NCBI GenBank assembly: GCA_030696455.1
Contig: JAUYSH010000031.1
Location: 1 to 49,102, forward strand
Direction of reading: 5' to 3'
From: Elusimicrobiota bacterium
GTDB lineage: Bacteria; Elusimicrobiota; Elusimicrobia; UBA1565; UBA9628
DNA length: 49,102 bases
Part shown: positions 9,139 through 42,781 of the stretch, one piece after another
Layout of the letters: every line of letters starts with the position of its first letter
Position numbering within the stretch: position 1 is the first letter of the stretch
Notes under the pieces: model-generated
What the model was told of the DNA's origin: nothing
Databases searched by the model: none
Seen by the model: only the letters and a program-made list of their open reading frames with translations
Made by a program: the position numbers and the translations under genes

Positions 9139-9197
9139 AAACCCCCCTCATACCGGCATGTCGCCGAAGGTCGCGCCGTCGGCCTCCCGGAGGTCGT

Positions 9198-9623: not shown

Positions 9624-9658
9624 TCAACGACCTTCGGGGTTTCGACGACCCGAAAGTC

Positions 9659-9688
9659 AGAAGGCCCCCGCGCGAGCGGGGGCCTTCT
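9659..9688 (+). terminator. intrinsic terminator of the SWIB gene
   Basis: A 13-bp perfect stem (AGAAGGCCCCCGC) with a GCGA loop is followed by TCATTTT. It stands 35 bases after the SWIB stop codon. A weaker hairpin around TTCGGG/CCCGAA precedes it. Confidence 0.85.
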
Positions 9689-9741
9689 TCATTTTACGGA
9701 TTTGATAAACTGGCGCGGTGGGAGAAAAGGTCTCGGGGGTC

Positions 9742-9818
9742 TGGTGGCGCGTACGGGATTTGAACCCGTGATCTCTTCCTTGAGAGGGAAGCGTCCTAGG
9801 CCGCTAGACGAACGCGCC
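9742..9818 (-). tRNA. tRNA-Glu (anticodon CTC), CCA encoded
   Basis: Read on the minus strand, the acceptor stem GGCGCGT pairs with ACGCGCC, followed by A73 and an encoded CCA (9742-9744). The anticodon arm TTCC-CTCTCAA-GGAA gives anticodon CTC, reading GAG codons of glutamate. The T arm CGGGTTCAAATCCCG is canonical. The 5' leader and 3' trailer continue the acceptor pairing: 9731-9752 is complementary to 9812-9833 with one mismatch. The primary transcript can therefore form a 22-bp helix. Confidence 0.95.
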
Positions 9819-17227: not shown

Positions 17228-17245
17228 CTACAATGTCGGGCGCGC

Positions 17246-17911: not shown

Positions 17912-17941
17912 CCCGCTCGTAATCGCCGGGCGGCGGTCGAA

Positions 17942-23717: not shown

Positions 23718-23924
23718 CGCCCTCAGTTTAAGGCTTCGTCACGTTTTCGTCAACCCTTGTAAACGTCGATTACATGGTTTCCAGCGGTCGCGCCTCGTTT
23801 GAGCTCGCGTAGTCGCGTCCGGCGGGATGATCCTCCGGGCCCGGCGACCGCGCGCCGGCTCCCTCCGGATCATCCCCCCGGCCTACCTGGATAGCTCGGC
23901 GGCGCGACCTTGGGAGATATCCCC

Positions 23925-23967
23925 TTTACCGCCGGCGCTGGCGGTAAAACTCGCACCGGTGCGAGTT
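23925..23967. terminator. two adjacent palindromes at the end of the giant-protein/PorV operon
   Basis: TTTACCGCC and GGCGGTAAA enclose a six-base loop (23925-23948). A perfect 20-bp palindrome, AACTCGCACCGGTGCGAGTT, follows at 23948-23967 and touches the PorV stop codon. They probably terminate or protect the 3' end of the minus-strand mRNA. The first shares GCGCTGGCGGTAA with the palindrome at 9198-9229. The rest of the gap up to 23717 has an inverted pair around GGATGATCC/GGATCATCC and no gene. Confidence 0.6.
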
Positions 23968-27800: not shown

Positions 27801-30800
27801 TCAGGCTCGAGACGTTCTGGCGCTCGATGGCGACCGCATAGACGCCGGTAGACAGGCCGGGGATGGTCCCTTTGATGGTCGTGTCGTTCCAGACCGACAC
27901 CGGCGCGGCGAGGGTACCGAACTTGATCCGCGTATTGCTTCCACCATACGGCCCGAACCCCGCGCCCGCGACGGTGAACGGGATTCCGATCGGGCCGGTG
28001 GACGGTGCCACCGCGACGCCGCCGGCCGCCGGGGTGCTGACGTCGATAAAAGAGCCTACGACGGGTGTCTCACTCGTCACTCGATACGGGGAGGTCGAAC
28101 CGTCAACGGACAGCCACAGTTCGCTCCCCTTGAACACCGCGCCCTGTGCTCCGCCCGCGTCCGCGGTCGTCGCGCCCAGGAAGGCGCCGTCATAGCCGAA
28201 ACGCCACAGCGCGGCGTCGGTCATGTCCTCGCCGATGGCGCCCGCGATGAGGAGCCCGCCCGCCTCGGGCAGTATGGCGACCGGATAGGAACGCGTCCCG
28301 CCGGGGGCGCGCCAGACCTTCTCGACGAGCGTCTGCCCCGTGGCCTTGTCGAATTTAAGGAATGCCGTGTCCGAGCCGTCCGAGTCCACCGAGGCGTTGA
28401 GCCTCGGGGCCGCCACGAAGACGGCGTCATTGGTCACGTGGACCTTGGCTGTGATCCCGCCATCGAGATGGCTCAGGTAGCCGGGCTTGAAGAAAGGCCC
28501 GCCGAGCAAGGTCTGGCCGTCGGAGGCGTAATGACGCAAGGCAAGGTCGAGGCCGCCCTCGTCGGGCGCGTCGGGCTGCGCCGAGTAGCCCACGATCCAA
28601 AGGCTGCCGTCCGCGTCGACCGCCAGGCCCGTGCCGAAGTCGAAGCCCGCCCGGGACACGCTCGTCGAGAGCTCGACCGCGCCCGACACGGGATCGAAAC
28701 GCCAGAGCGCCAATGAAAAGCTGCGATCGCCGTCTTCATCGAGGTCGGGAGGGCCGGCCGTCTGAGCTCCGCCGACGATCCAGCCCGGCGCCTTCGCGTC
28801 GAAGACGAGTTCGTTGTTGGCGTAGCCGCTGTCGAATAAGGTCCGCGTTTCGATCGCGTCGCCTGACGGGGAGGCCTTATAGATCGCCAGGTCCAGGACC
28901 TCGCTTTCGGGCTCGGGATGGGCCATGCCGATGGCGTAGGCCCGGCCGGAGGCGTCGAAGAACACGGACCAGGGCATGTCGTCGACGCCGTCCTCCAGGG
29001 GCGAGGAGGCGAGCGGGGCGCCCGAGGAGTCGCTGCGGGTGAAAGCGATCGCGTCGGGCTCCGCGTTGACGGTCCAGAACGCATCGAAGGGGTCCCGGCC
29101 GATGCCCAGGCCGCCCGGGTCGTCTTCGTCATCGGAGAATCCCACGTTCGGGAATACCGTCTGAGCTTGCTCCGCGTTGCCGACATTATCAAACGCCCGG
29201 AAGCGGACCACATGCCCGCCGTTCGAGAGCATGAACGGGCCGGCGTACCAGGGGTTCTCGCAGGTCCCCCGCGCGGCGGCGGTATCCTCGGCGACGTTGT
29301 TGCAAACGTCGGGGTCGAGGTAATCGACGAGATAATGGATTCGGAAAACGCCCGCGCCGTTAGAATCGGACGCCTCCAAAGTGATCTCGGCTCCGTTTTG
29401 GCTCAGCTGGGTAACGGGCGGCTCCGGATCCACGATCACGGTGCGCGAAGAGATGGACCCCGGATTATCCGCCGCGTCCATGGCATAGAAATCAATCAGG
29501 TGCGCGGTTCCGGCCGCGACGCTGAACGAGCTCGAAAATGCAGTGAACGATCCCGTCGAGTCGACGCGGTAATACGCCGACGGCGCGCCGCCTCCCAGGC
29601 CGTCGCCGAAGGCGAGCTTGTCGTCGGTCACAACGAAGGCCAGTTCGCTCGTCGGACCCACGAACACCTCGCCGCCGGCCACGAACATGGGTCCTGCGGC
29701 GCTAAGTTCGACGCGCGGCGGCTGGACGTCCGCGAGCGACCCTGAAAGGGCGTTCTCGTTCGTCACCTTATATGGGGACGTTGCGTCATCCACCGCCAAC
29801 CACAACTCCGAGCCGCGAAATGCCGCTCCACGCGCCCCGCCCGCGGCCGCCAAAGACGCCGAAGTCAGACCGCCGTCCGCGCCGTAGCGCCACAGCGCCG
29901 CCCTCGTCGTCCCGCTATCGAGGCCGCCCGCCGCCAGAAAGCCCTCTCCATCGGGGAGCGCCGCCGCGGGATAGGCGCTCGACCCGTCGGTCGCTCGCCA
30001 AGCATGTTCCGCGAGCACCGCCCCGCTCGCCTTGTCGAAGCGCACCGAGCCCAGGTCCGTTCCCCCTCCCGTCCGACCGCGAGGGACCGTGACCGTGACG
30101 GCGGCGCTCGCGATGGAGATCGCGGCGGCGAACGTCGATGAAAAGCCCGAGGCGTAAGCCTCGCGCCGGAAGGGGCCGGCAAGAAGGGTCTGTCCATCCG
30201 CGGCGAAATGCCAGAGACCGAGATCGAAGCCGCGGCTTGAGCGCGGAGCCGGGTTCGTCAAATATCCGGCCACCCATGCCGAGCCGTCCGCGTCAACCGC
30301 CACGCCTAGGGCGACGCCCGAGGAGAAGGTCGTGCTGAGGGCCACGGTCATATCCTCCGGATTAAATCTCCAGAGAGCGGCTTTGGAGTCGCCCAAGACC
30401 TGAACGGAGCCAACGATCCAACCCGGGGCGGCCGCGGCGAAAACCTGGTCGTCGCCGCCGAAGCCGCTGTCGAAGATTCTCGTGGATATGATCGCGTCCC
30501 CGTCCACGGAGGCTTTGTAGACGGCAAGGTCAGCGCCTATGCCCTCCGCGGTGCCCACCGCGTATGCCCCGCCCGAGCCGTCGAAGAGGACGTTCCACCG
30601 CGCATTCACGCTGGCCTGCGCCAGCGAAGCCGAGGCGAGCACGACGGCGTTGACGTCCGCTTTCGCGAGCGCCAATTCCGTGCCATTCACCACCACCGTC
30701 CACAGCCTGTCCGCCGAGTCCCGGCCGATGCCGAGAGTCCCTGTTCGCGGGAGCGGCTCATCGACGAGTACGGACACGCCACGGGCGGTCTCGACGTTGC

Positions 30801-32391
30801 CCGCGATGTCGCGGCTGTAATACACGAGAGTATGGGAACCTGCGCTCAGGATGAACGGCCCAGCGTAGGGCTGCCCCGGCGTCGAGACGGTGTCCACGAA
30901 AGGCGCGTCCAATAACACCAAGGTATCCACCACGCCCGACACTGGCGCGCCGGGAAATGAGGGATCCGAGGCCGCCAGCGACAAGGTCGAAGTCGTGCTC
31001 AGGACCAGATACTCAGTTGATGACGGTGTGAGGCCGTCCACGAAGAGGGTCGTGATCGGGCGCAGGTAATCGGCGGCTGGGACCGCTGGCGTGACGCCAA
31101 AAACCCCGAATATAGATGAAAGCTCGCTGACCCGCGCAGAGATCTTGCGGCATTGCCTATCGACAAGCACCGATGTGGGGGGATGCGGCTGGGAACCGTC
31201 TGAACTCTTAAGCTGTAGCAGCTTGCTCGCTATTGTACCCGCGGTCAATTCATCCTCTTCGCTATAGCTCGTCTCGATCAATAGAGGCGGATCAAAAATT
31301 CGACCGGATGGACCCACATCGTAGGCCTCGCCCAGCATAGCGGCTCCCAGGGACCGCTGAACGGAAATCAACTGCTCCAAATTCGGATTGCTCGACGCGG
31401 AGGCGATCGTCGGCGCGGGCGCGTTTGAGGTCAGACGAAAGGCCGGGCCGCCCACGCTGACTTCGTTTTCGAACTCGCTGCTGGCCAGCAGGTAGCTTCC
31501 GAAGCCGGTCGCCGAAATCACCGCTTCGTTGGCCCCCGCGTTGATCGCGACCACCCGTGATTGGCGCGTGCATTGGTCCGGAAACTCAAACGACTGCGCC
31601 CGTTGCTCTTGCGTCTCAGTCAACCCCGACTCCCCATAGGCGACCTTAATTTGAAATGGGCCTCCGATTTCCGCAATATTGCCGGCCAGGGTCAGAGCTG
31701 TTCCGGCCAACAAGTTGTTGTAACCCTGGATGCCGGGCGTTTCCCCAATTATCGCGGACACTCTGCCCTGGATCTCGGGGTTCATTCCCGCCAAGGATAG
31801 ACCGGTACCGAGCTTCAAAGTCGACTGCCCCGGAAAGAACCGTCCCAACTCGGCAGGGAAGGAAGTCGAACTAAAGAGTACGCCGTAAATATTCACGCCG
31901 GGCTTTACGACAAGCGCATGCCGTCTTCCCAAGTCGCAGGTCACCTCGTCGGGATTCGGCACTATGCAATCGGCGAAAGCAGTTTGCGGAGCGTGGGTCA
32001 GGGTCGCGACGTATTTGTAGAACTTTTTATAAACGCACATCGTATTAATCGTAGGCGAGCTGATCTGGATCGAGATGCCAAAGCCCGCATTTTTCACTGC
32101 GCTAGCGCTTCCTGAACCTAACGAACAGGAGGTCTCAGATTCGCCCTCGTTCCACGTCACTAGTGCGGTGGAATAAGTCCCGATCGGCTGAACGCTCGTC
32201 AAGGGAAAAGAACCTGCAACCGTTCCAATCGACACGACTTGCACGCCGGAAGCATCGACATACGCACCGTTCCCGGTGAAAAGGTCGACATAATGGCCTA
32301 CCGGCTCAACTGCGCCCTCAAGAAACATAGACGTGGAGATAGCCGATTCAAAGAATTCCGACTGTTGCGTCGTCGTCCAAGGCCCCCCCCC
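24847..32391 (-). CDS. giant surface protein, C-terminal 2514 residues (frame-separated from the phospholipase-like N-terminus)
   Basis: This is the downstream part of one large gene. From the ten-G run at 32383-32392 the frame is open to 24847. In order from the N-terminal side it has about 500 residues of mixed strand content without a recognised domain. Then come two copies of a propeller-like module of about 330 residues (LGIGRD starts at about 30740 and 29105), nine IPT/TIG repeats, a ZU5-like segment (TRFATPVTIELPYDPAL) and a C-terminal FlgD-like Ig domain (AFPNPSRGGALVTFRI, ELRVYDLSGRRI) ending in GVIR. Such C-termini are used for surface sorting through PorV. The frame extends 96 codons upstream to 32679, but there it overlaps the other frame and reads as Arg/Pro/Ser noise. 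Taken alone, the first plausible ATG is at 32328. GC rises from the N-terminal to the C-terminal part. Confidence 0.85.
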   Translation of the reverse strand, partial: GGGPWTTTQQSEFFESAISTSMFLEGAVEPVGHYVDLFTGNGAYVDASGVQVVSIGTVAGSFPLTSVQPIGTYSTALVTWNEGESETSCSLGSGSASAVKNAGFGISIQISSPTINTMCVYKKFYKYVATLTHAPQTAFADCIVPNPDEVTCDLGRRHALVVKPGVNIYGVLFSSTSFPAELGRFFPGQSTLKLGTGLSLAGMNPEIQGRVSAIIGETPGIQGYNNLLAGTALTLAGNIAEIGGPFQIKVAYGESGLTETQEQRAQSFEFPDQCTRQSRVVAINAGANEAVISATGFGSYLLASSEFENEVSVGGPAFRLTSNAPAPTIASASSNPNLEQLISVQRSLGAAMLGEAYDVGPSGRIFDPPLLIETSYSEEDELTAGTIASKLLQLKSSDGSQPHPPTSVLVDRQCRKISARVSELSSIFGVFGVTPAVPAADYLRPITTLFVDGLTPSSTEYLVLSTTSTLSLAASDPSFPGAPVSGVVDTLVLLDAPFVDTVSTPGQPYAGPFILSAGSHTLVYYSRDIAGNVETARGVSVLVDEPLPRTGTLGIGRDSADRLWTVVVNGTELALAKADVNAVVLASASLAQASVNARWNVLFDGSGGAYAVGTAEGIGADLAVYKASVDGDAIISTRIFDSGFGGDDQVFAAAAPGWIVGSVQVLGDSKAALWRFNPEDMTVALSTTFSSGVALGVAVDADGSAWVAGYLTNPAPRSSRGFDLGLWHFAADGQTLLAGPFRREAYASGFSSTFAAAISIASAAVTVTVPRGRTGGGTDLGSVRFDKASGAVLAEHAWRATDGSSAYPAAALPDGEGFLAAGGLDSGTTRAALWRYGADGGLTSASLAAAGGARGAAFRGSELWLAVDDATSPYKVTNENALSGSLADVQPPRVELSAAGPMFVAGGEVFVGPTSELAFVVTDDKLAFGDGLGGGAPSAYYRVDSTGSFTAFSSSFSVAAGTAHLIDFYAMDAADNPGSISSRTVIVDPEPPVTQLSQNGAEITLEASDSNGAGVFRIHYLVDYLDPDVCNNVAEDTAAARGTCENPWYAGPFMLSNGGHVVRFRAFDNVGNAEQAQTVFPNVGFSDDEDDPGGLGIGRDPFDAFWTVNAEPDAIAFTRSDSSGAPLASSPLEDGVDDMPWSVFFDASGRAYAIGMAHPEPESEVLDLAIYKASPSGDAIETRTLFDSGYANNELVFDAKAPGWIVGGAQTAGPPDLDEDGDRSFSLALWRFDPVSGAVELSTSVSRAGFDFGTGLAVDADGSLWIVGYSAQPDAPDEGGLDLALRHYASDGQTLLGGPFFKPGYLSHLDGGITAKVHVTNDAVFVAAPRLNASVDSDGSDTAFLKFDKATGQTLVEKVWRAPGGTRSYPVAILPEAGGLLIAGAIGEDMTDAALWRFGYDGAFLGATTADAGGAQGAVFKGSELWLSVDGSTSPYRVTSETPVVGSFIDVSTPAAGGVAVAPSTGPIGIPFTVAGAGFGPYGGSNTRIKFGTLAAPVSVWNDTTIKGTIPGLSTGVYAVAIERQNVSSLTVTSAGLFTVTDLNTAVLNISSGPIGVPFSIAGTGFGPYAGALSRVLLGGATAPLSVWNDTTISGTLPAVPPGETTILIQRATADGGLSTSEGFAFEVTVPSVTSVSPSSAPIGAVYTLTGFSCGPYAGSNSRVLFGGASTALSLWSDRVIKGTVPGALSPGVQTVIVERLTAGGGLVQSGTAYFQVAGLALAGIVPSSAPIGVPFTISGSGFGVFDGANTRVKFGVSTAAVSLWNDTTITGTIPALEPGEWPVVVERQQGSAVSASLTTTFTATALSVNAISPSSGPIGTAFTLTGPGFGPYAGAASVVLIDGATAALSVWNDASIVGTIPGSVSTGTRPVVLRRTSGTGESISPPVYFEVTVPAVAGIIPSSAPIGAPFTITGTNFGVFGGANTRVTFNGVIAALSLWNDTTITGTVPAVPAGIVDIIVERQQGADVSASVAVPFTVLDPAVGGVSPGSGPIGTIFTITGNGFGPYAGANTRVLIGGTTAALSLWNDTTIKGTIPALPPGVVPVWLERSAGSGVSSSATSYFNVTTPEVATLTPSSAPIGAPFTITGTSFGAYAGANTRVTFNGVIAPLSVWNDIQITGTVPGSLEPGEAVLVVERAFGTGLSASATQAFFVLAPSISTISPSYGPVGTVVTVNGSGFGPYSGTLTKLLVGGATVPLSVWNDTTIRWTVPASLGDGEYPVVVERSPAGGTVVSASATFTVGTGYSGASFGFTETLSLAATPDTHFEGDMSLSSAAGGRIDTPAKAAVEIPPNAMEQDTAITLKRIRSDGLRASAAEEIKMRPAGEPIEFGPPGTRFATPVTIELPYDPALTGDETKIAVHYYNPLRREWEALPSVVDRARKVVTAKTDHFSIYQPLGLAPTTVAQDEFYFRDAYAFPNPSRGGALVTFRIQPGLAETVELRVYDLSGRRIHSSSDFTFRGAIDDGNGKGAQNTYDHVWNVSGVGSGVYNFVIKASQRGHKPITKNGKVGVIR
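25660..28030 (-). repeat. nine tandem IPT/TIG repeats in the giant protein
   Basis: Each unit of about 87 residues (about 262 bases) starts with a P-SS-(A/G)-PIG motif, has a GFGPYAGANTR-type middle and SVWNDTTI before the last strands. IPT/TIG units are Ig-like domains of adhesins and extracellular enzymes. Copies 4, 6 and 8 are closest to each other (ANTRV-F start, ERQQG in 4 and 6), and 2, 5 and 7 form another group, which points to growth by two-unit duplications. Confidence 0.85.
28070..30745 (-). repeat. duplicated propeller-like module in the giant protein
   Basis: Two copies run from about 30745 to 29750 and from about 29110 to 28070. They share LGIGRD, a D(L/A)AVYKAS or LAIYKAS block, PGWIVG, ALWRF, VDADGS, DGQTLL, and end SELWL(A/S)VD...SPY(K/R)VT. 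They are separated by about 200 residues with Ig-like features (LSQNGAEITLEASDSNGAG). The repeated VDADGS-type strands suggest a beta-propeller. Confidence 0.75.
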
Positions 32392-34363
32392 CGAGCGACG
32401 GGAAAGCGCTGAGAGAATAGCTGACGTCGAGCTGCGTCGTGGCATCGTTGTTGTCGGCCAGCACAAATGAACGGGCGGACGAGGAATGTTGCCAAGACAC
32501 GCTGGCCCCGACCGACAAGGCGAGATCCGGGAATTCGCTTGACGAGAAATGCGTCGTGGGCTGAGCCTCGGTCGTTGAGTTCGGCTCGCCCGTCTTGTAG
32601 GTATACAGGGTCTTCTCGCCCGCCGGGGCGGTGAAGTCCGCGTCGAATTCAATCTCGAATTTTCGGGAGGCGGGATCATAGGTACCGAGTGCCCTCGGTA
32701 CGGTTTGTGCGGATAAATCTACGGGTTCAACCTGCCACTCCAACGCTGTAGGCGTGGGGTTGGAATTTTGGGCGGAAAGTTTGTAGGTGCCGCCGCCCAT
32801 TGTGCCGCCTATCGAACCGGAGTAGGTGGTCTGGCCGGCGGTAAAACTCGGCGACAGGAGTGCATTCTGGATAATGCCGTCTATTTGCAGGGTTACGGAC
32901 TCGAGCGGAGAGCCCTCGCCGGATAGCGTGAAGGTACCCCCACTGTTGCGTGTGGAAATAGGATACCGCAACGTCCCGCTATTGGCCGTAACGGTGATAT
33001 TACCTGCAGACACTGATATTTTTGGTGGTGAATGCTGCATTGTGAAAATCACACAAGTGTCCTGGCCTGGGGCGTTGCCGTCTCTGTCTATCGCGCGCAG
33101 GCAAAGGGTGTGTTCGCCATCGGCAAGTGGCGCGCCGCTAGCGACCGCGCCTTTCCAGTTCAGATTGATTTCGCCCTCAAACGGGAGGATGTATTGATTG
33201 GTCCCAGCCACAATCGGCTGGCTAGTCGTCGTGCGCAGTTGGACGGGCTGGGCGAGCCACGTCTGCGGGCCCGGCAGGATTTGTGATTCGGTGCTGCCCG
33301 ACGCGCTCCTAAAGCCGGTCAGGGACACCGTCGCGCTTTCGGAGACGATCCGTTGGCCGGTGTCTTGGACCCAAATGTCGATGTCGACGATGTCCGTCCG
33401 ATTTTCGGCGACCACAAAACGGATTGGCGTGCCAGTCAAATTATTGATAATCGGAGACGCGCCCCCGCTGTCGATGACAAACTCGGAGGATCGAGGCGGC
33501 AACAGTCGGGACATTTTGCTCAGGAAGAAATAGGCGTAATCTGTCGCTTGCTTTCCTTGCTGAAGATACAAGCCCGGCTGCTCGGGGTCATGGAATATGT
33601 CGTTATAGCCGACGCCGCCGTATGCTCCGAATAGCGCGTCGCCAGGAGTTGCCTCGCCGTCGTATGGCGTTGAAATCTTTCTCGGAGCGAACGTGTCATC
33701 CCAGGTCAGCTCTTCATTTCTCCACCAATAGCGCAAACCTGTTGATGTTGCATAATTCCCAACAATCGCTCGCGTTTGTCGAAGGCTCGACAAGTAGGCC
33801 TGGTCGGGTGCAACGTTGCCCTGATTTGCCGTCAGTGATACATTAACCTTGGAGGGAATGAGCGGCTCGTTCTCAAAATTATCGGGATCGAAGCCCTCAG
33901 TAAACGAAGGGCAAGCCCCGTGTCGGACGTTGGCCCCATGCGGCATCGATGCCTGATCCTCAATTAGGTGCAACGCAGAGCCCATATAAACATACGCGCC
34001 CTCGGCCCCCGCCGCCTCGTCGGAATAATTTCCGGCCTCGTAACGAGTGAAAATGCGATTGAAAATTGTCTCATACTGCCCGCCGTTCCACGGCACCACA
34101 CAAATGTCAGTGTTCTGATTCAGAACATGCGCAAGCTGCTCTCCAGGAGTCACATTGTTCGGGATAGGTTTTCCAATCCCAGCCACCCAATTGACGATGA
34201 CGTTTTTGAACCGAGCGATATCAGGGTTTTGATTCGTCGCATTCAAACTATCTGCGGCAAGATTTGTGGCAGCGCGGTGTTGTTCGGTGTTGAATGACCA
34301 TGCCGACCCCGCAAGAGAGGCCAAAACAAGACCAAAGACGGCTCGCGCGGCGGACTTTTTCAT
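32348..34363 (-). CDS. secreted zinc phospholipase C-like protein, N-terminal part of the giant gene
   Basis: As sequenced this is a 671-residue protein. A signal peptide (VFGLVLASLAGSA) is followed by a mature N-terminus starting at Trp22 (WSFNTEQHR), the same kind of start as Bacillus cereus phospholipase C, whose N-terminal Trp binds zinc. The zinc motif follows in YMGSALHLIEDQASMPHGAN, where His132, Asp136 and His142 keep the H-x3-D-x5-H spacing of the family. The remaining about 480 residues carry Ig-like segments (ISVSAGNITVTANSGTLRYP). The last eleven codons after the G run are out of the original frame and end in GIL. The ATG at 34363 overlaps the stop of the HEAT gene by one base; a GTG sits directly before it. 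GC is clearly below that of the C-terminal part. Confidence 0.85.
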   Translation of the reverse strand: MKKSAARAVFGLVLASLAGSAWSFNTEQHRAATNLAADSLNATNQNPDIARFKNVIVNWVAGIGKPIPNNVTPGEQLAHVLNQNTDICVVPWNGGQYETIFNRIFTRYEAGNYSDEAAGAEGAYVYMGSALHLIEDQASMPHGANVRHGACPSFTEGFDPDNFENEPLIPSKVNVSLTANQGNVAPDQAYLSSLRQTRAIVGNYATSTGLRYWWRNEELTWDDTFAPRKISTPYDGEATPGDALFGAYGGVGYNDIFHDPEQPGLYLQQGKQATDYAYFFLSKMSRLLPPRSSEFVIDSGGASPIINNLTGTPIRFVVAENRTDIVDIDIWVQDTGQRIVSESATVSLTGFRSASGSTESQILPGPQTWLAQPVQLRTTTSQPIVAGTNQYILPFEGEINLNWKGAVASGAPLADGEHTLCLRAIDRDGNAPGQDTCVIFTMQHSPPKISVSAGNITVTANSGTLRYPISTRNSGGTFTLSGEGSPLESVTLQIDGIIQNALLSPSFTAGQTTYSGSIGGTMGGGTYKLSAQNSNPTPTALEWQVEPVDLSAQTVPRALGTYDPASRKFEIEFDADFTAPAGEKTLYTYKTGEPNSTTEAQPTTHFSSSEFPDLALSVGASVSWQHSSSARSFVLADNNDATTQLDVSYSLSAFPSLGGGALDDDATVGIL
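32383..32392 (-). repeat. run of ten G (minus strand) where the two halves of the giant gene lose frame
   Basis: The minus strand reads CTC, ten G, CCTTGG. The upstream frame continues GGG GGG GGG GCC and stops at 32348. The downstream 2514-residue frame needs nine or twelve G. A homopolymer of this length is prone to replication and transcription slippage, and also to sequencing or assembly error. Confidence 0.9.
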
Positions 34364-35586
34364 CACTTGTTGCGGCGACTATCCTCAACACTCTTATCGA
34401 TCTGTCGCGGGTACTCGCCTGAGAGCCACTTGAGCGCGCCTTCGGCCGCCATTTGGACGCGGCTGGAACGATCAGTCAAAGCGGCTTTGAGCTCAGGCTC
34501 AGCGCTCTTTACATTCTTGCGTCCCAATATGGATGCAGCCTGCGAACGGACACCTGCATCAGGATCGTTCTTCAGCAGGTTGATGACTATCGGCGCTTTG
34601 TCTTCGCTCCAGGTTTTTTCAACCAGGGCAACAAGCCCCTGAAATCTCACCTCGGCATCAGCGTCCTTCAGCATGTCCATTATTGGCCCAGAATCATCCT
34701 TGGTCATGCTTTGGGAAAGCGCAACTGATACCGTTTCAACTACACGGCGATCTTTGTGTTTCAGAAGGGTTTTGAGTCGTTGCGGTGCCCCGGGTCCCTG
34801 CATGCGGGCGAGTCTCACGATCAGCGCGCCACTGACTTGCGCATTAAGTTTTTCAGAATCGACCTCGCGCATTATTCGGTCGATTCCCGCGACACCAAAG
34901 CCCGAAAAGTCCAACTGGGCTTTAGGGTCTTTTTTGACGCGTTGAACAAAATCGTCAAGGTCCTGTGGGTCGCCAATTTGGCTGATAGCTCCAGAGGCGC
35001 GATCACCCGCCAGCCCACCTTTATTGAGAATTTTTCGAAGCCCGGGCAGGGCATCGCGATTTTTTCCCTTGCCTGCTACTTCCATCAGCAACGAAACGCG
35101 GGCGAACTGGATCGTTTCCTTCTCGTTCTTCTGTCCGCCCCCATGTCCTAATACGGGGGTGAAATTTCTGGGGAGATTGCGGGATTCATCCTCAAGCAGC
35201 TCGGCGACAACTGCGTGGTGCTTGGGTTCCGTGCACTTTTGAAGCGGCCGCGCGAGTTTGAATGCCCTCGCTAGGGCTTTCTTATCGCCCTTTGCGTCAG
35301 CTTTCTTTTCGACATCTTTTATTGCGTCATAAATGGCAATAACATCCTCTCGTCCTGCCGGCTCCGAGTCCGCCACCGCATCAAGGGCAGCATCTTCAGT
35401 CCCCGCGTCCTTCGCGTTTCTCGCGGCTTCCAACGCCGCGCGCAGATTGGCATATTTCCTGGGCTTTTTTTCTGAATAGGCTGCCCTTGGAAACAGAACC
35501 GCAAGGCCAAGAACGACTAATCCGAGCTGAACAATGCGCTTCATCAAATTTTTAGTCTTCGATTTGCTGAGGACCAATCGTTTCAT
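34363..35586 (-). CDS. exported HEAT-repeat protein
   Basis: The product has 407 residues. The start was chosen at ATG 35586, with GAGAGG eight bases upstream. The n-region is long and Lys-rich and precedes a hydrophobic core (IVQLGLVVLGLAVLFPRAAYS). The mature chain has a helical region and then four to six HEAT-like pairs (RRVVETVSVALSQSM, AEVRFQGLVALVEKTW, AGVRSQAASILGRKNV, SRVQMAAEGALKWL). These are binding scaffolds. It heads the operon with the giant protein and PorV: its stop TGA overlaps the next ATG (TGATG). It may help the folding or export of the giant protein (inference from position). Composition is less GC-rich than the genome average here. Confidence 0.8.
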   Translation of the reverse strand: MKRLVLSKSKTKNLMKRIVQLGLVVLGLAVLFPRAAYSEKKPRKYANLRAALEAARNAKDAGTEDAALDAVADSEPAGREDVIAIYDAIKDVEKKADAKGDKKALARAFKLARPLQKCTEPKHHAVVAELLEDESRNLPRNFTPVLGHGGGQKNEKETIQFARVSLLMEVAGKGKNRDALPGLRKILNKGGLAGDRASGAISQIGDPQDLDDFVQRVKKDPKAQLDFSGFGVAGIDRIMREVDSEKLNAQVSGALIVRLARMQGPGAPQRLKTLLKHKDRRVVETVSVALSQSMTKDDSGPIMDMLKDADAEVRFQGLVALVEKTWSEDKAPIVINLLKNDPDAGVRSQAASILGRKNVKSAEPELKAALTDRSSRVQMAAEGALKWLSGEYPRQIDKSVEDSRRNK

Positions 35587-35789
35587 TGCTATTCCTCTCG
35601 CTGCCATGCGGATTCAAAATAGACGGAACGGGCGCTCGCGGAGTTTTCATCGAAGTGTAAAAATTTGTCGGGGACGGCTGCGCCTGGTCGGGAAGGTTGC
35701 GGCTTCGACGATCGTTGCTCGCTGTTCGTTGTGTCCTTCTCGCGGTCTTCGAGCGCGCCCTGAGGTTGTGGTTTTGTGACCGCTGGACC

Positions 35790-35818
35790 ACTTTAACCCC
35801 GGTCATTAATTTCGTCAA
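35790..35818 (-). promoter_or_regulatory. possible promoter of the HEAT/giant-protein/PorV operon
   Basis: On the minus strand TTGACG (35818-35813) is followed after 17 bases by TAAAGT (35795-35790). The -35 matches five of six consensus bases, the -10 four of six. It would leave a leader of about 195 bases before the ATG at 35586. Call is by pattern only. Confidence 0.4.
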
Positions 35819-35819
35819 G

Positions 35820-36488
35820 ACCTACGATAAAATAAGCGCTTTGATGTTCCTTTGACATTGGTTTTCCTCGACGAGAACATTCTGTCAGTCGCCATGGCTA
35901 GCTGCCAGACCACCTCACCTTACCCGCTCGGTAAGACCGCCGACGGCGTCGCGGCCGCCTTTTAGGGGACCGTCGGCGTCGGTTTGCTCGGGCACCGCTT
36001 TCTTCGTGGGCCTGAACACGCCGAGCAACGTGGCGTGTCCGCGGCCAAGACGACGCCCAGGGCCTCAGCTCGAACTATTTTGCAGGTAAATGCCACCTCG
36101 CAGAGTGGAAGCGATGGTGGTTCTGTCCGGCTTGTCTTTCATTCCCGCACCTTGGGCGATGGCCTTCACGTCCCGAATCCATCAGGGTCCCAATTTCAGC
36201 CGCCGCCGCCTGTGCGCTACGCTCATTGATGGGCAGAAACGTGGGGAACAGCGTCTCATCCTTGCCGTTGATGAAGTCGACCAGCGATGCCATCGCACGT
36301 ACACGGTCCGACGAGGGTAGAGGTCATCTCCATATCCGATATAGAGGGTGTGTGATACAATCTTGACTGGAAGGCGTCCCTTAGGACGCAGGTGATGCGA
36401 TAGCGTTCACGCGCCACTGCTTCTGTCAAGGACTAGAGACTATGCCAGTTCGCAGAAAAACGAAAGCACTCATGCGGCCACGTGCCAC
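35820..36488. other. gene-poor junction between the surface-protein operon and the defence island, with decayed coding fragments
   Basis: No intact gene is visible. On the plus strand, about 35895-36050, the reading PLGKTADGVAAAF, stop, GTVGVGLL, then PEHAEQRG resembles the end of a MotA/flagellar stator protein with an internal stop. This is weak. On the minus strand, about 36293-36080, MASLVDFINGKDETLFP continues in one frame to a GTLMDSG and then, after a shift of one base, in another frame to a stop, as a broken gene would. Both look like relics. A hairpin GCGTCC-CTTA-GGACGC lies at 36374-36389. Confidence 0.45.
36353..36361 (+). promoter_or_regulatory. possible extended -10 promoter of the defence operon
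   Basis: TGATACAAT is an extended -10 (TG-n-TACAAT). No good -35 stands 17 bases upstream, which an extended -10 does not strictly need. A six-bp hairpin follows at 36374-36389, and the first ORF starts about 125 bases downstream. Pattern-only call. Confidence 0.3.
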
Positions 36489-36626
36489 GTGAGCGTCTAC
36501 CTGCCGCCGCAATTATTCGAGCAAATCGTGGAGAACCCCAAGACTGCGCGCCGTTCGCTTAGCGCCGAGATCGTAATGGTCAACGGGCTCGCGACTCGCA
36601 AGAGCAAGACGACTAAGGGAGGATAG
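36489..36626 (+). CDS. tiny ribbon-helix-helix (CopG/Arc-like) ORF, possibly truncated
   Basis: A 45-residue frame starts at GTG. SVYLPPQLFEQIVENP is the beta-strand and first helix of a ribbon-helix-helix fold, and RSLSAEIVMVNGLATR the second helix. Complete members usually have six to ten more residues before the strand. The in-frame sequence upstream to 36396 lacks ATG, GTG or TTG, and an ATG at 36471 in another frame ends at TGA just at this point, so a frameshift near 36488 is possible. It ends directly before the GTG of the ParB-like gene, and its last codons (AAGGGAGGA) provide that gene's ribosome binding site. A role as autoregulator of the operon is plausible. Confidence 0.5.
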   Translation: MSVYLPPQLFEQIVENPKTARRSLSAEIVMVNGLATRKSKTTKGG

Positions 36627-37760
36627 GTGAAGCTCAACACGAATCGCGCCAAACAGGTCGAGGCATGCCTCAAGGATCAGAAAGAACTGCCCAATACGGC
36701 CGTCCGCGTGGAGCTTGCCGGTCAGCTCCACGTGCTGCTCGTCTACCGCGTCCCCACGAAGCTTCTTCTTTTTAATATCCGGAACGGACGTTTCGCTGCG
36801 GAACTGCTTGAAAAAGAAGAGCAACTCAAGCGCAAACTTGACCCGTCGGTTGAAACTGATGCCAAGATCATCCAGAAATTGCTGCTTGAGCAGGATGAGA
36901 CAGAGACCAAGGTGCTGAAGGACGACCTCCTAGCACATGGCCAACTTGAACCTGGCATCATCACCTTCGACGGCGCTGTGATCAACGCCAACCGGAGAAT
37001 GGCCATCATCAAGACCCTCTTTGATGAAACCCGCGAACCCCGATTTGAGCATCTCAATGTCGCGCGGTTGCCCGAAAATGTTGACGAACGCGATCTCTGG
37101 CGAATCGAGGCGGGTCTTCAGTTTGCCCGCGATTTCCGACTTGAGTACGGCCCCATCAACGAGTTGCTCAAGCTGAAAGAAGGCCGCGAAAGAGGATTGG
37201 AGCCCGAAGATATCTCGAAGTCTTTGCTCGGCCGGTACAATCCCAAAAAGGTTTTAGAAAAGATCGAAATCTTAAAGCTAATCGACACTTATCTGCGCTC
37301 GAACAAGAGGGCGGGCGAGTATCATCATGTCGCCCGTAACGTCGAAAAGTTCAATAGCTTACAGGCCAACGTGGTCGCACCATTAAGGCGGAAAGGCAAG
37401 AATGAGGCTGAGATCGCCAAAACCATCGCAGTCGCTTTTGCCCTGATTCACAAGACCGATGTCAGCCATTGGGATATCCGAGATCTGCAGAAAATAGCTC
37501 TGAATGCAAAAGCCGAGAAAGAGCTCGGGCCGATCCTTAAAGACAAGCCCTCGAAAGAGGCAATCACAGAATCTTTTACCGCGGCTCAAGAAATCATCGA
37601 GGACGAGAAGCAGAAGGATAAGCCTGAGCGTCTCTTGAAGCGCGCGCTATCCGCAGTCCGTAGCATCAGTCCCCAAAATAGCCGGCTAGGTACCGCGAAG
37701 ATTAAAACGATGCTCAGAGAATTGGCGAGCCAAGTCAACCAATTGCTGAAGGGTCACTGA
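36627..37760 (+). CDS. ParB/Srx-fold protein of the defence island
   Basis: The product has 377 residues starting at GTG, with GGGAGG four bases upstream. An N-terminal part (VLLVYRVPTKLLLFNIRNGR) matches the first strand-turn of ParB/sulfiredoxin-fold proteins. HGQLEPGIITFDGAVINANR and R-M-A-I follow (about residues 107-126), the equivalent of the GQ-EPI.V-.-GN-RR motif, with Arg123-Arg124. The second half is helical with a ParB-like KKVLEKIEILKLIDTYLRS region and a basic C-terminus. ParB folds act as CTP-dependent DNA clamps or nicking/ATPase proteins; DndB and related modification proteins are distant relatives. In this context I expect a DNA-recognition or licensing role rather than chromosome partition. 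It begins the operon of tightly spaced genes. Confidence 0.75.
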   Translation: MKLNTNRAKQVEACLKDQKELPNTAVRVELAGQLHVLLVYRVPTKLLLFNIRNGRFAAELLEKEEQLKRKLDPSVETDAKIIQKLLLEQDETETKVLKDDLLAHGQLEPGIITFDGAVINANRRMAIIKTLFDETREPRFEHLNVARLPENVDERDLWRIEAGLQFARDFRLEYGPINELLKLKEGRERGLEPEDISKSLLGRYNPKKVLEKIEILKLIDTYLRSNKRAGEYHHVARNVEKFNSLQANVVAPLRRKGKNEAEIAKTIAVAFALIHKTDVSHWDIRDLQKIALNAKAEKELGPILKDKPSKEAITESFTAAQEIIEDEKQKDKPERLLKRALSAVRSISPQNSRLGTAKIKTMLRELASQVNQLLKGH

Positions 37761-37766
37761 TTCTAA

Positions 37767-39674
37767 ATGGCTCAGCAAGCACGTTTGATTGTCGAGAATG
37801 GAACGCTAAAAATCACAGCGCCGGCTCGTTCGCCCATTCATCAGGGGACCCACTACATCTTCCTGGTCAATGTCCTGGGGCTGGAGCCGATCCTTAAACC
37901 CGAGCCTGGATTCCAAATTCAACTCGGCCCTTCGAAACAAGCGCTGATCCGTCAACTTGTCGATTACTTCCATGAGGCGGGAATCAAGCTTAGTCTGGAA
38001 GGAACGGCGGGCGAGATTTCTCGCCGACTCGAGAGTGATGAGCAGGCCCTGGAAGCAGCTCGCAAAGCGGGCGATGGCTTGAAGCGAGCCCCGCCGCGAA
38101 CAGAACGCTTTCAGATTCCCGGGTTTAAGCGCGAACTCAAAACGTATCAGATACCGGCGGTTCAACATGCTGTCAGCGTCGCGAATGCGGCCAATTTCTC
38201 AGTCCCTGGGAGCGGGAAGACGACCATCACGCTTGCAGCCTACGCGATCATGAAGGCGCAGGGCGCAGTCGACAAATTGGCCGTAATTGGTCCCCGGGCC
38301 TGCTTCATGCCGTGGGAAGATGAATATGAGGGCTGCTTCGGTGAACAACCGGAATCCATCCGCATTTCGGGAAGCCGCGCTCGCCGAAAGGGCCTATTCA
38401 GAAAGGCCGATAGCGCAGAGTTGGTTCTTCTTACTTATCAGATGGCAAGCAACGATGCTGATGATGTGGCTGCGTTTCTTCAGCGCAATCGCTGCCTCCT
38501 CGTGCTGGACGAGTCACACTACATCAAACGCCTCGAAGGCGGAACCTGGGCGTCCGCGTTGCTTGATCTGGCCCCGTTCGCGTCGCGGCGGCTGATATTG
38601 TCCGGCACCCCCGCGCCGAACTCACTTCTCGACCTCTGGTCTCAGTTCGCGTTTTTGTGGCCCAACCCCCCATTGCTCGGGCGGCGCGATCACTTTCGCT
38701 TCAAAGTGGACCAACACGGATCAGAGGCGGAACAGATCAAGCGCACTCTTAGACCGTTCTTTTGGCGTGTACGGAAAGCCGACCTCAAGCTGCCCTTGCC
38801 GACATTCCACAGAGTAGACGTTCCCATGCGGCCGTACCAAAGGCGAATCTATGACGCGATCGGCGCCAAAGTTCTTAGGGACGTAGTCAAGGCGCCCAGC
38901 GATCGCTCCAAACTGCGTTTATGGCGGAAGGCGAAGATAGTGCGCCTTCTCCAGGCTGCGTCCAATCCTTCGCTTTTGACGGAGTATTCGACCGAGTTTC
39001 GGATTCCGCCTTTGGATGCGACCGGGCTGCCGATTGATCAACTCGTCGAACAATATTCGAAATTTGAAGTTCCGGCCAAGTTGGATTACGCGGAAAAACT
39101 TGTGCGGCGCCTAGTTAAGAAGGGCGAGAAGGTGCTTCTGTGGAGCACCTTCGTCCATAACATCAAGACGCTGGAAGCTCGGCTTAGGGACCTCAAACCC
39201 CTTTCGATCTTCGGTGAAGTGCCCAAGGACGATGATGAGAACGAGGAATACAATCGCGAGCTCATCATACGGCAGTTCAAGACGCCCGACGGCCCTCCGA
39301 TCCTAATCGCTAACCCCGGCGCCTGCGCTGAATCTGTCTCACTCCATAAGATCTGCAAACATGCCGTGTATTTGGACCGGACGTTCAACGGCGCTCAATA
39401 CCTCCAATCGTTGGATAGGATTCATCGTGTCGGCCTCGGCCCGAAAGAACACGTGCACTACTACATCATCCAGGCTACCGACAGCGTCGACAGCGTGGTC
39501 GACCAACGTCTCGAGGAAAAGAAACTCCGAATGCTGCATCTACTCGAAGACGAACTCCCAGTGATGTCACTCGATGTTTCAGAGGACGAGGTGTCGGACG
39601 AGGACGACGAGGGCGCCGATTTTGCGGCGATGGTCGTTGAACTGAAAAAGGAATTTTCTCGTGCACACTCATGA
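37767..39674 (+). CDS. SNF2-type DEAD/DEAH-box helicase of the defence island
   Basis: The product has 635 residues. After about 130 N-terminal residues, RELKTYQIPAVQHA is the Q-motif-like entry. Walker A is FSVPGSGKTTITLA (Lys151), the Walker B/DEAH box is LLVLDESHY (Asp248), motif III LILSGTPAPNS, and the second RecA domain shows VLLWSTFVHNIKTLEARL and LDRTFNGAQYLQSLDRIHRVG (motifs V/VI). An acidic tail ends the protein. SNF2 proteins translocate on double-stranded DNA and drive restriction or remodelling complexes. Six bases follow the previous stop; the next gene overlaps by four bases. Confidence 0.93.
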   Translation: MAQQARLIVENGTLKITAPARSPIHQGTHYIFLVNVLGLEPILKPEPGFQIQLGPSKQALIRQLVDYFHEAGIKLSLEGTAGEISRRLESDEQALEAARKAGDGLKRAPPRTERFQIPGFKRELKTYQIPAVQHAVSVANAANFSVPGSGKTTITLAAYAIMKAQGAVDKLAVIGPRACFMPWEDEYEGCFGEQPESIRISGSRARRKGLFRKADSAELVLLTYQMASNDADDVAAFLQRNRCLLVLDESHYIKRLEGGTWASALLDLAPFASRRLILSGTPAPNSLLDLWSQFAFLWPNPPLLGRRDHFRFKVDQHGSEAEQIKRTLRPFFWRVRKADLKLPLPTFHRVDVPMRPYQRRIYDAIGAKVLRDVVKAPSDRSKLRLWRKAKIVRLLQAASNPSLLTEYSTEFRIPPLDATGLPIDQLVEQYSKFEVPAKLDYAEKLVRRLVKKGEKVLLWSTFVHNIKTLEARLRDLKPLSIFGEVPKDDDENEEYNRELIIRQFKTPDGPPILIANPGACAESVSLHKICKHAVYLDRTFNGAQYLQSLDRIHRVGLGPKEHVHYYIIQATDSVDSVVDQRLEEKKLRMLHLLEDELPVMSLDVSEDEVSDEDDEGADFAAMVVELKKEFSRAHS

Positions 39675-40669
39675 TTGAACACATCGGCGAGTTGAATCGA
39701 GTACTCATAGCGACTCGCACCGTCGCCGATGCGGCGCGCTCAGCCACCGTTGGGGCAGTGATTGAACAGTGTCAGACCACCGTAATAGAAGGCCGAATGC
39801 CGGACCATGCGGTCAGCATCAGATTTGCGGCGTCTCTCGGACTTGTAACCGACGACAGCGGGCGGGTCGCGATCACCGACAAGGGGGTCGCATTTCTTGA
39901 GCGCAACGAAGGCGACAGCTATGATTTGGCCGACGAACAGAAGAGGCTCCTTCTTCGAGGATGTTTTCTCCAAGGGCCGATGCGGGACCGAACTCGCCGG
40001 CTACTCAAGGGCTTCTCGCCTGTTTTTAAGACGGGCACATTTCGCTGGTCGGAAATCGACAGCGCTCCTCTCGAAGCGGAAGATTGGCTCATCGAACAAC
40101 TCCGCCAGCTTGGACTCCTTAAGCGAGACGGTGCCGCGCTCGAGGTCGAGCAACTCTATGTGAAGACCGTCGCCGCCTTTCTGGAAGAGAGCGCGGGCTT
40201 TACCGAGGAACAGGCTGCGGAGTATTACCGGGAGAAAATCGAAATTGGAGCCTTAGCCGAGGATCTCATCGTTAAACATGAGATGGGTCGCCTCCGCGGA
40301 GCAGGCCATCCTGTAGAGGCCGAATGCGTTCGAAGGATCAGCGCAGTCAGGGTAAACGCTGGCTACGATGTTGAGTCGTATGACGCGGGGGCGCACGACA
40401 TGGATTTCGATCGCTTCATCGAGGTGAAGGGGTCCCGCGGCTCCGACCTCCGCTTCATCTGGACCGATAACGAAATGAGGATCGCGAAGAAGCTCAAAGA
40501 TAAGTACTGGATATATTTCCAAGGCGGCATCGACCTCAAGAACCGCGCCGCAAAGAATGAGCCCATGCTATTCAAGAATCCGATCGACACCTTACACAAA
40601 GACGCACGCATAAAAATGACTCCCTATGGCCTGGTAGTCGAAGGAAAGTTGCGGGGAGCGGCGCGATGA
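39671..40669 (+). CDS. DUF3883 nuclease-like protein of the defence island
   Basis: The product has 332 residues. The N-terminal about 170 residues look like winged-helix segments (AVSIRFAASLGLVTDDSGRV, then KGVAFLER). The C-terminus is a DUF3883 domain, a PD-(D/E)XK-like fold. AGYDVESYDAGAHDMDFDRF leads to IEVKGSRG with Glu251 and Lys253, and then FIWTDNEMRIAKKLKDKYW. DUF3883 domains occur mostly beside helicases and methyltransferases of restriction systems. The acidic partner is probably one of the Asp residues before the strand. Overlaps of four bases with both neighbours (ATGA) show a tight operon. Confidence 0.85.
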   Translation: MIEHIGELNRVLIATRTVADAARSATVGAVIEQCQTTVIEGRMPDHAVSIRFAASLGLVTDDSGRVAITDKGVAFLERNEGDSYDLADEQKRLLLRGCFLQGPMRDRTRRLLKGFSPVFKTGTFRWSEIDSAPLEAEDWLIEQLRQLGLLKRDGAALEVEQLYVKTVAAFLEESAGFTEEQAAEYYREKIEIGALAEDLIVKHEMGRLRGAGHPVEAECVRRISAVRVNAGYDVESYDAGAHDMDFDRFIEVKGSRGSDLRFIWTDNEMRIAKKLKDKYWIYFQGGIDLKNRAAKNEPMLFKNPIDTLHKDARIKMTPYGLVVEGKLRGAAR

Positions 40670-41625
40670 ACTTGGCTGATCTTGCGCCGAATATTATCGA
40701 TCCTTTGGCTCCGAAGAAACGAAGCCATTACGTCGATGCTCCTTTCGGCTATTACGGCTCCAAACAGCGTCTGGCGTCGCGGATCGTGGAGCAACTTCCG
40801 CCGCACAATGCTTGGGTCGAGGTCTTTTGCGGGTCCGCCGCGGTAACGCTCGCAAAAAAGCCCGCGCCCATCGAGATCATCAATGACATCGACAGCGAAG
40901 TCTTCAATTTTTTCAAGCAACTCCGAGAAAATGGCGATGAGCTTTGCAGGCAGATCGCGCTGACGCCCTACGCGCGCGAGGAATTCGAGCTGGCGCGAAA
41001 ACGTCAGCTAGCGAAAAACGGAATTGAGCGCGCTCGGCGATTCCTTGTTTCATCCATGATGACCGTAAATGGAACCGTCGGCGCCGCGGCACACTCTGGT
41101 TTCTCCTACTCTCAGTCCTATGTCCGAAATGGGAAAGAGGCGCGGGTCAACCGATGGTATACGCTGCCGGATAAGCTGGCCAAAGTCGCGGAGCGCCTTA
41201 GAGGCGTTCGAGTTGAAAACAGAGACGCGCGCGAACTGCTGGCGATGTTCATCCACAGACCGGCAACCCTCGCTTATCTGGATCCGCCATATCTGATGGA
41301 TCGAGAGCACGGATACAGGACAGACGCGCGCGATCAAGAGTTCCATGTGGAGCTCTTGAGAATCGCATGCAAAGCCCACTGCATGATCTTGATCAGCGGA
41401 TACAACAATCACGTCTATAATTCAATCCTGACGAAAGAGCATGGGTGGACAAAGAAGCTGATCTTCACGACGACGAGAGATACCCGGGGACACGATCACA
41501 AGCGCACCGAAGTGCTCTGGAAAAACAAGGCTTTCGAGAAAGCCCGCAAATCGAGACAAATCCCCATTCATCTTTCAAAGATGGAACGTGAACAGAACAA
41601 GGTAAACCCCGCTAGAAAAGGATAG
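40666..41625 (+). CDS. Dam-type (D12 class) DNA adenine methyltransferase of the defence island
   Basis: The product has 319 residues. FGYYGSKQRLASRIVEQLP is the SAM-binding N-terminal motif of the DpnM/Dam family. WVEVFCGSAAVTL is motif I (FxGxG type, with Ser-Ala after the Gly) and D206-PPY is the catalytic motif IV, LAYLDPPYLMD. HDHKRTEVLWKNK lies near the C-terminus. These enzymes methylate adenine at N6; many recognise GATC, but the target recognition region here cannot be read. As part of the operon it would mark the host DNA against the Mrr-type and DUF3883 nucleases. Confidence 0.94.
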   Translation: MNLADLAPNIIDPLAPKKRSHYVDAPFGYYGSKQRLASRIVEQLPPHNAWVEVFCGSAAVTLAKKPAPIEIINDIDSEVFNFFKQLRENGDELCRQIALTPYAREEFELARKRQLAKNGIERARRFLVSSMMTVNGTVGAAAHSGFSYSQSYVRNGKEARVNRWYTLPDKLAKVAERLRGVRVENRDARELLAMFIHRPATLAYLDPPYLMDREHGYRTDARDQEFHVELLRIACKAHCMILISGYNNHVYNSILTKEHGWTKKLIFTTTRDTRGHDHKRTEVLWKNKAFEKARKSRQIPIHLSKMEREQNKVNPARKG

Positions 41626-41631
41626 AGACCA

Positions 41632-42639
41632 ATGGGCGCAGCGGTATTGCCACGCATTCAACTTATCACGACGCTTAGCGAGGTCGCAGGGTACAAGTCT
41701 GGCCTTGCTCTGACCACAAAGCAGATCATCGAGCACCTTCCAGATCACGCCGGGTATTTGGCGGGCCCGGAAAACCAGATCATCAGGATACGATCCGAGG
41801 ACTACGAAGATATTTTCGTCGATCTTCTTCATAAGCTGGGAGTAATTGAATCGCCCCGCCAGACTCTCCTTGGAAAGGGCTTCCGGGACCGCTACAAGGC
41901 CGACACGAAGAAGTTCGACTTGGCCGATAAGATCATTAAGATTTTTCTCGTTGAGATGCCCAAGGCAACTGCAAAGGCCGGCAAGGACAAGATCGACTTG
42001 ACGCCATTCGTCGAAGAATGCGCCCGGCAACACGGCAAGGATGGCCTCGACCTCGGCTTGGCATTTGTCGATGACGTCATGGGCTCGCTCCAGAGCAGTC
42101 CTTGGAGCAATTTCCGGCGGGTAGATTGGACTGATACCGCTCAGCTCAAAGACCTCTTCGAGAGCGAGGGATTGACGACGCTCTACGGCAGGTTCTTCGA
42201 TCAGAGATATATAGATTATCTCGGTCAAAACTTCGACGAGATCGACAAAATCAATTGGCGGAAATTCGAAGGCTTGACGGCAGAATTTTTTGAGCGCGAG
42301 GGCTTTCGGGCGGAGATAGGACCCGGGCGCGACGATGGCAATATCGATGTCCGCGTCTGGCCAAAAGACGCAGCCGATGGCCGACCCCCGACGATCATTA
42401 TTCAGTGCAAGCGGGAAGCGAGCAAAATCGGAAAGGTCGTCGTAAAGGCTCTATACGCCGACCTGCTTCACGAGCGCGCCGAGTCAGGCCTCATCGTCAC
42501 GACAAGAAGCCTGGCGCCGGGCGCCGCGGAAGTTTGTACCGCCCGCGGATATCCGATCACGCAGGCGGACAGGGCCGCCGTGAAAAAGTGGGTCGAGAAC
42601 ATGAGAACCCCCCTCACCGGTGTCTTTCTTGGCGCGTAG
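41632..42639 (+). CDS. Mrr-type restriction endonuclease of the defence island
   Basis: The product has 335 residues. The N-terminal about 215 residues look like winged-helix modules. The C-terminal Mrr_cat domain starts FEGLTAEFFEREGFRAEIGP and has the catalytic strand pair GNIDVRVW (Asp239) and TIIIQCKRE (Gln258, Lys260), i.e. the D-x(n)-QxK version of the PD-(D/E)XK motif. It closes with SGLIVTTRSLAPGAAEVC. Mrr proteins cut DNA, often modified DNA (type IV); alternatively it is the cutting subunit of a conventional restriction-modification set with the adenine methyltransferase six bases upstream. It is the last gene of the operon, and the GC-rich backbone resumes after about 42640. Confidence 0.92.
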   Translation: MGAAVLPRIQLITTLSEVAGYKSGLALTTKQIIEHLPDHAGYLAGPENQIIRIRSEDYEDIFVDLLHKLGVIESPRQTLLGKGFRDRYKADTKKFDLADKIIKIFLVEMPKATAKAGKDKIDLTPFVEECARQHGKDGLDLGLAFVDDVMGSLQSSPWSNFRRVDWTDTAQLKDLFESEGLTTLYGRFFDQRYIDYLGQNFDEIDKINWRKFEGLTAEFFEREGFRAEIGPGRDDGNIDVRVWPKDAADGRPPTIIIQCKREASKIGKVVVKALYADLLHERAESGLIVTTRSLAPGAAEVCTARGYPITQADRAAVKKWVENMRTPLTGVFLGA

Positions 42640-42781
42640 CCGTTAGCCGTTTAAAACGAAAGCCCGCCGCGAGCGATTCCCGCGAGGCTAGGCCGGTGTG
42701 TAGGATGGCGAGCATCAAGCGCGAGGGACGGACGCCCGGCACACCCTTGTCCCGCTTCCCCACCCTTGCTAGACTCTCGTC

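Follow-up and report, generated by a model that had tools for sequence, protein, structure and literature searches.

In this work we describe a compact gene unit in a 49,102-nucleotide stretch of DNA from an Elusimicrobiota bacterium (GenBank assembly GCA_030696455.1, contig JAUYSH010000031.1, positions 1 to 49,102; the whole of this stretch is referred to as the window), in which a ParB-like protein, a SNF2-family ATPase, a DUF3883 protein and a D12-class DNA methyltransferase are encoded within 5 kb. On the strength of its gene content, gene order, conservation, predicted folds and mobility, we consider that this is probably a mobile, ATP-dependent, four-gene defence unit of the restriction-modification (R-M) type which uses a ParB-type clamp, its defence activity and mechanism being putative. 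The features of the locus are as follows:

36627..37760, forward strand: ParB-like protein, 377 residues; ParB NTPase fold plus helix-turn-helix (HTH) region; predicted nucleoside triphosphate (NTP)-gated DNA clamp
37767..39674, forward strand: SNF2-family ATPase, 635 residues; Pfam SNF2-rel_dom 1.2e-17; predicted double-strand DNA translocase
39671..40669, forward strand: DUF3883/NOV_C protein, 332 residues; Pfam NOV_C 8.2e-16; predicted restriction nuclease
40666..41625, forward strand: D12-class (Dam-family) adenine-N6 DNA methyltransferase, 319 residues; Pfam MethyltransfD12 4e-23
41632..42639, forward strand: Mrr_cat endonuclease, 335 residues; Pfam Mrr_cat 3.5e-20; local add-on
36489..36626, forward strand: small open reading frame (ORF), GTG start, 45 codons, read from the sequence; ribbon-helix-helix-like by eye
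23753..23760, forward strand: left direct repeat, 8 bp, ACCCTTGT; insertion junction
42743..42750, forward strand: right direct repeat, ACCCTTGT; insert end, just past the operon

Key to this reading is the recurrence of the four genes across genomes. One-per-species genomes were searched with the SNF2 protein alone and the best 80 of 552 relatives were analysed, genes being labelled within a stretch around each SNF2 gene by profile hidden Markov models built in this analysis. A ParB-like gene was found in 77 of the 80 loci, DUF3883 in 64 and a DNA methyltransferase in 67 (D12 class in 32, N6_N4 in 27 and C5 in 12), with hosts distributed among many bacterial phyla as well as archaea. The exact window order of ParB, SNF2, DUF3883 and D12 methyltransferase is kept in 13 of the 80 (L010, L011, L040, L042, L043, L050, L053, L055, L057, L061, L063, L070 and L072), and also in genome G227 (L091). 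As a control, viral contigs were scanned with SNF2, giving both close and distant SNF2 proteins: nearly all of the close loci (L119-L142) carried ParB and many carried DUF3883 and a C5 or N6_N4 methyltransferase, while the 56 distant loci (L143-L198) yielded no ParB, no DUF3883 and a single C5 match. This indicates that the partnership with ParB and DUF3883 belongs specifically to this SNF2 subfamily, and that label matches are not random. Within the phylum of the window, ParB was detected in 3 of 341 genomes, with a weak match in one of the three, and the unit is thus sporadic there.

An initial reading of the window, the first-pass annotation, had proposed a recurrent gene set of restriction type comprising all five genes, and had suggested conserved synteny across genomes as a check. 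The survey upholds a recurrent, mobile, restriction-type set, ParB-SNF2-DUF3883-methyltransferase, reduced from five genes to four by the exclusion of Mrr, which was looked for in the 80 SNF2 loci and found in none. The closest relative, in G227 (78% ParB identity), shares blastn identity with positions 36628-41549, from the start of the ParB gene into the methyltransferase gene, where the identity stops; behind a gap there follows a NERD-UvrD gene and no Mrr. Full-length Mrr relatives on plasmids stand solo or in unrelated operons, none of them adjoining the four-gene unit. We therefore rejected a five-gene unit and, given the survey count and the point at which the G227 identity ends, regard Mrr as a local add-on; the presence of two nucleases for one methyltransferase, remarked upon earlier, is accordingly a feature of this locus, because Mrr lies outside the recurrent unit.

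In other respects the layout first described was confirmed by the ORF coordinates: all five ORFs are intact and co-oriented, with two neighbouring pairs overlapping by 4 bp and two separated by gaps of 6 bp, and the core motifs (R123/R124 in the ParB-like protein, GSGKT at 148-152 and DESH at 248-251 in the SNF2 protein, EVK at 251-253 in DUF3883 and DPPY at 206-209 in the methyltransferase) are present and conserved in relatives. The ParB-like gene begins at a GTG at 36627, preceded by a Shine-Dalgarno-like GGAGG, and its G227 homologue, the nearest, begins at the residue aligned with this position. A start at 36489 was rejected, that GTG belonging to the separate 45-codon ORF; no ORF similar to 36489-36626 was found upstream of ParB genes in related loci, and it may represent a possible local regulator outside the conserved unit.

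The ParB-like protein matched no Pfam model, and only 3 of 49 relatives matched ddrB-ParB, weakly; NCBIfam matches (a transaldolase model, devC) were far under cut-off and were discarded as noise. A sequence search of the PDB with the ParB-like and DUF3883 proteins likewise returned nothing useful, fold comparison alone being informative. The AlphaFold model (pLDDT 94.7, pTM 0.87) found its best Foldseek matches in Spo0J (1vz0), Noc (7nfu), ParB-CDP (7bnk) and KorB (8qa9), all at prob 1.00 with TMt up to 0.61, followed by one ParB-N domain and then noise. Over about 200-260 columns these matches take in the HTH region as well as the NTPase domain, which is the layout of DNA clamps. Of 96 aligned rows, 92 keep N122 and R124, and the remaining four are gapped at R124. 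R124 corresponds to the Box-II arginine, mutation of which abolished nucleotide binding in a 2025 survey of the fold (PMC12704722). The predicted fold and key residues thus support placing this protein with the ParB/Noc/KorB CTPase clamps, and bear out the ParB-type leading gene claimed at the outset, though Pfam is silent. In L022, L060 and L092 SNF2 is preceded by ParB-like genes in tandem, two or three in number, an arrangement that suggests putative hetero-oligomeric clamps.

Downstream of the ParB-like gene, the SNF2 motifs are kept in about 90 relatives. The DUF3883 model (pLDDT 91) consists of two N-terminal winged-helix-like units and a PD-(D/E)XK endonuclease-like fold, and its residues E197, D233, E251 and K253 are invariant in 44 of 44 aligned sequences, a larger set likewise showing D/E/K in all rows without a gap. 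In many loci a D12 methyltransferase is linked to DUF3883 with these invariant residues, a combination expected of an R-M system; the D12 subfamily of the window accompanies the core in about 30 loci. Where DUF3883 is absent, ParB often bears an N-terminal extension: those of L035, L036, L049, L073 and L075 match HNH_2 below the Pfam cut-off, and the two checked in PADLOC (L049, L075) match CBASS endonuclease effectors (CBASS/SAVED-HNH-like). In two plasmid relatives, L006 and L007, SNF2 is lengthened by a long N-terminal extension. In L007, a distant relative and the only one with a PLD match, this extension matches PLDc_2 at 7e-7, and a MutH-like gene lies nearby. From these domain matches, DUF3883 has apparently been replaced by HNH or PLD nuclease domains in some loci.

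The same ParB-SNF2-DUF3883 core is served by three unrelated methyltransferase classes. Among labelled rows of the SNF2 tree (a quick tree search with some weak branches) the class shifts at least 13 times, which identifies the methyltransferase as an exchangeable, plug-in part. A plasmid search with the Dam protein itself was uninformative, returning general D12 enzymes alone.

Mobility is evident at the window locus and elsewhere. The operon lies within an insert of about 19 kb (23753-42750) bounded at both ends by the 8-bp repeat, and in three genomes of the same genus (G196, G197 and G204) the site is empty, position 23760 joining 42743 directly with one copy of the repeat. In G208 and G205 the same site holds different DNA, so that it may be a hotspot for insertion. 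Third-position GC is 0.63-0.68 in the five genes, compared with 0.96 in a neighbouring core gene. Other genes (24847-35607) share the insert, which may have arisen in more than one event. Beyond the window, the unit is carried on plasmids, a prophage and viral contigs. The ParB-like query recovered plasmid loci (Azospirillum, Mesorhizobium, Rhizobium, Kozakia and others) in which ParB adjoins a helicase, DUF3883 is often next, and Dcm and Vsr lie nearby. Type II R-M genes adjoin some copies (HaeIII-like restriction endonuclease, Dcm and Vsr, MutH-like), one Thaumarchaeota locus holding a HaeIII-like enzyme.

Two further observations concern C5-type loci. In Streptococcus phage Javan191 (L099 1-6607), ParB-SNF2-DUF3883 is accompanied by a C5 methyltransferase on the opposite strand and a 307-residue gene of unknown function in front. 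Directly before ParB in L005, L008, L071, L080, L081, L083 and L084 stands an unknown family of about 300 residues, a candidate specificity or nuclease component, for which the one member checked gave no clear Pfam match.

Taken together, these data lead us to propose a mechanism in which the methyltransferase, from its family, would mark adenines at the host's own recognition sites, and the DUF3883 protein would act as restriction nuclease, its two winged helices reading the site and its PD-(D/E)XK domain cutting. The SNF2 protein, as expected for its family, would translocate on double-stranded DNA with ATP, while the ParB-like protein, for which fold and key residues support an NTP-gated clamp, would load on unmodified foreign DNA and there hold or activate the SNF2 motor and nuclease, by analogy with the stimulation of ParA by ParB. 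The outcome would be cleavage of unmethylated DNA, with the methylated DNA of the host left intact; in this genome Mrr is an extra putative nuclease gene behind the unit. More tentatively, and with rather less than even confidence, the loci may together represent a widespread, unnamed R-M class in which a ParB-type, NTP-switched clamp selects the DNA to be destroyed by a SNF2 motor together with an interchangeable nuclease, and into which adenine or cytosine methyltransferases plug. If true, a nucleotide-gated clamp of the segregation type would also work in the DNA immunity of bacteria and archaea. With at least 552 SNF2 relatives in one-per-species genomes, the unit is common, as well as compact and modular; the profile libraries tested lack it, and it makes testable how a single restriction core works with three kinds of self-mark.

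Several points weigh against a clamp-directed R-M unit. The unit is known from genes and models, and phage defence, cleavage and a site common to DUF3883 and the methyltransferase are putative, as are clamp loading and motor coupling. Foldseek matches for DUF3883 are weak (best E 0.008), although they include the BpuJI recognition domain and Hjc resolvases. In 13 of the 80 loci no methyltransferase was recognised in the stretch examined, where some contigs end early and others do not. Finally, five loci without DUF3883, mostly from Bacteroidota (L048, L051, L066, L067 and L074), have a PNP_UDP_1 (phosphorylase-family) gene directly upstream of ParB, a possible nucleotide-acting effector, and the effector may therefore not always be a nuclease.

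This last pattern, together with the HNH-like fusions to ParB, suggests effector roles and lends some weight to another form of restriction system, where ParB, instead of being a clamp, has a regulatory role or acts as an effector that hydrolyses nucleotides, on the lines proposed for DndB or GmrS, and SNF2 with DUF3883 forms the nuclease machine; NTPase or nuclease activity has indeed been reported for ParB/Srx-superfamily proteins in conflict systems (PMC5512222, PMC10853773). We nevertheless consider this unlikely, since the match of the model to ParB/Noc/KorB is not limited to the NTPase domain but includes the HTH region, in the layout of DNA clamps. The invariant GQxxP, NRR and ExxLQ, which we take to be the three ParB boxes, also count against it. 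A mobile-element module for anti-restriction or DNA protection, comparable to the methylase-SNF2 dyad of P1 DarB, would account for the copies on plasmids and viral contigs, and SWI2/SNF2 and adenine methylase domains with ParB-type partners are known from phage and plasmid polyvalent proteins (PMC5512222). However, a nuclease with invariant catalytic residues, seemingly swapped for HNH or PLD domains, argues for cutting, and the contig that holds the window copy is cellular, no phage structural gene having been seen next to the unit, which makes such a role improbable.

Mrr-type genes often act on modified DNA, and D12 methyltransferases also occur as orphans, both of which are compatible with a methyl-directed (type IV-like) or host-regulatory module in which the methyltransferase is an orphan and the nuclease cuts DNA modified in another way. 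The position of Mrr outside the conserved unit, and the service of one core by three methyltransferase classes, which suits self-protection better, render this very improbable. Least credible of all is a plasmid or chromosome partition or maintenance unit: the ParB fold, and the annotation of homologues as 'ParB/RepB/Spo0J family partition protein', would fit, but the neighbours are a nuclease and a methyltransferase, and a partition system was rejected given that no ParA is found among the unit genes and that a separate ParB_N protein is encoded elsewhere in the genome, on contig C42.

Elsewhere in the window, the genes adjacent to the operon encode HEAT and DUF1189 proteins (Pfam). The insert contains a 2610-residue ORF (24847-32679, reverse strand) with repeated IPT/TIG-like units discerned by eye, which overlaps the next ORF (32348-34366) by 332 bp, perhaps through a frameshift or a misassigned start. 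At 17001-20000 about 3 kb stand out by strong skew, GC skew being 0.12-0.22 and AT skew up to 0.33, which is confined to this stretch, and GC drops to 0.56 in 7001-9818, just ahead of a tRNA-Glu (9742-9818), a possible second island at a tRNA.

With regard to known systems, PADLOC 2.0 and NCBIfam (defence library from 2023) contain no model covering the ParB-like protein or the gene set, and the open literature searched holds no description of the combination, although a name may exist in subscription papers, bioRxiv or newer databases; within this scope the system is, as first suggested, undescribed. One paper on mitochondrial R-M in which SNF2 is mentioned proved to be unrelated. Its distinctness from DISARM, BREX, Dnd/Ssp and type I R-M systems was also correctly anticipated, their defining partners not being among the five proteins: DISARM was rejected with no DUF1998 Pfam match and DrmA at 0.005 only, BREX with no PglZ or BrxC match, type I R-M with no HsdM/HsdS-type match, and Dnd/Ssp with no DndACDE or SspABCD match. 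Zorya ZorD, DpdE and DrmD share a general SNF2 motor similarity (PADLOC: ZorD 1e-25, DpdE 2e-20), but none of their partners was matched, and the window motor, of about 635 residues, has no fused Mrr domain; Zorya was rejected, ZorA and ZorB not being among the five proteins. PD-lambda-5, called a compacted restriction-modification plus abortive infection (RM+Abi) system by its authors (PMC9519451), resembles the unit in its D12 methyltransferase. PD-Lambda-5_A has no match in the window proteins and a weak one in 1 of 49 ParB members, and the window methyltransferase scores 2e-48 with a type II methyltransferase model versus 3e-18 with PD-Lambda-5_B.

SNF2 fused to DUF3883 has been reported in R-M operons, with DUF3883 named a novel restriction endonuclease domain, but in the parts of that account consulted the operons differ, containing a DUF499 ATPase and HEPN and no ParB-SNF2-DUF3883-methyltransferase unit (Anantharaman 2013, PMC3710099). 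With the ParB/Noc/KorB CTPase clamps the leading protein shares the predicted fold, NTPase domain plus HTH region, and the Box-II arginine; unlike them it is encoded in an operon with a motor, a nuclease and a methyltransferase and no ParA, and SNF2 is nowhere mentioned in the 2025 survey of the fold (PMC12704722). CglI and NgoAVII likewise encode in separate genes a methyltransferase, a nuclease that carries a DNA-reading domain of its own and a helicase-like ATPase of SF2, a separate SF2-type ATPase gene being present here as SNF2. They lack ParB, however, and use a PLD nuclease and a DEAD-family ATPase where the window unit has the PD-(D/E)XK DUF3883 and SNF2 proteins beside its ParB-fold protein. 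Pfam detected no PLD domain in the five window proteins, and membership of this group was rejected because the PLD nuclease is absent. In these systems cutting requires NTP hydrolysis, nuclease and ATPase act together, and DNA translocation has been proposed (PMC4267653, PMC5737866), and they are still the closest functional parallel to the unit described here.

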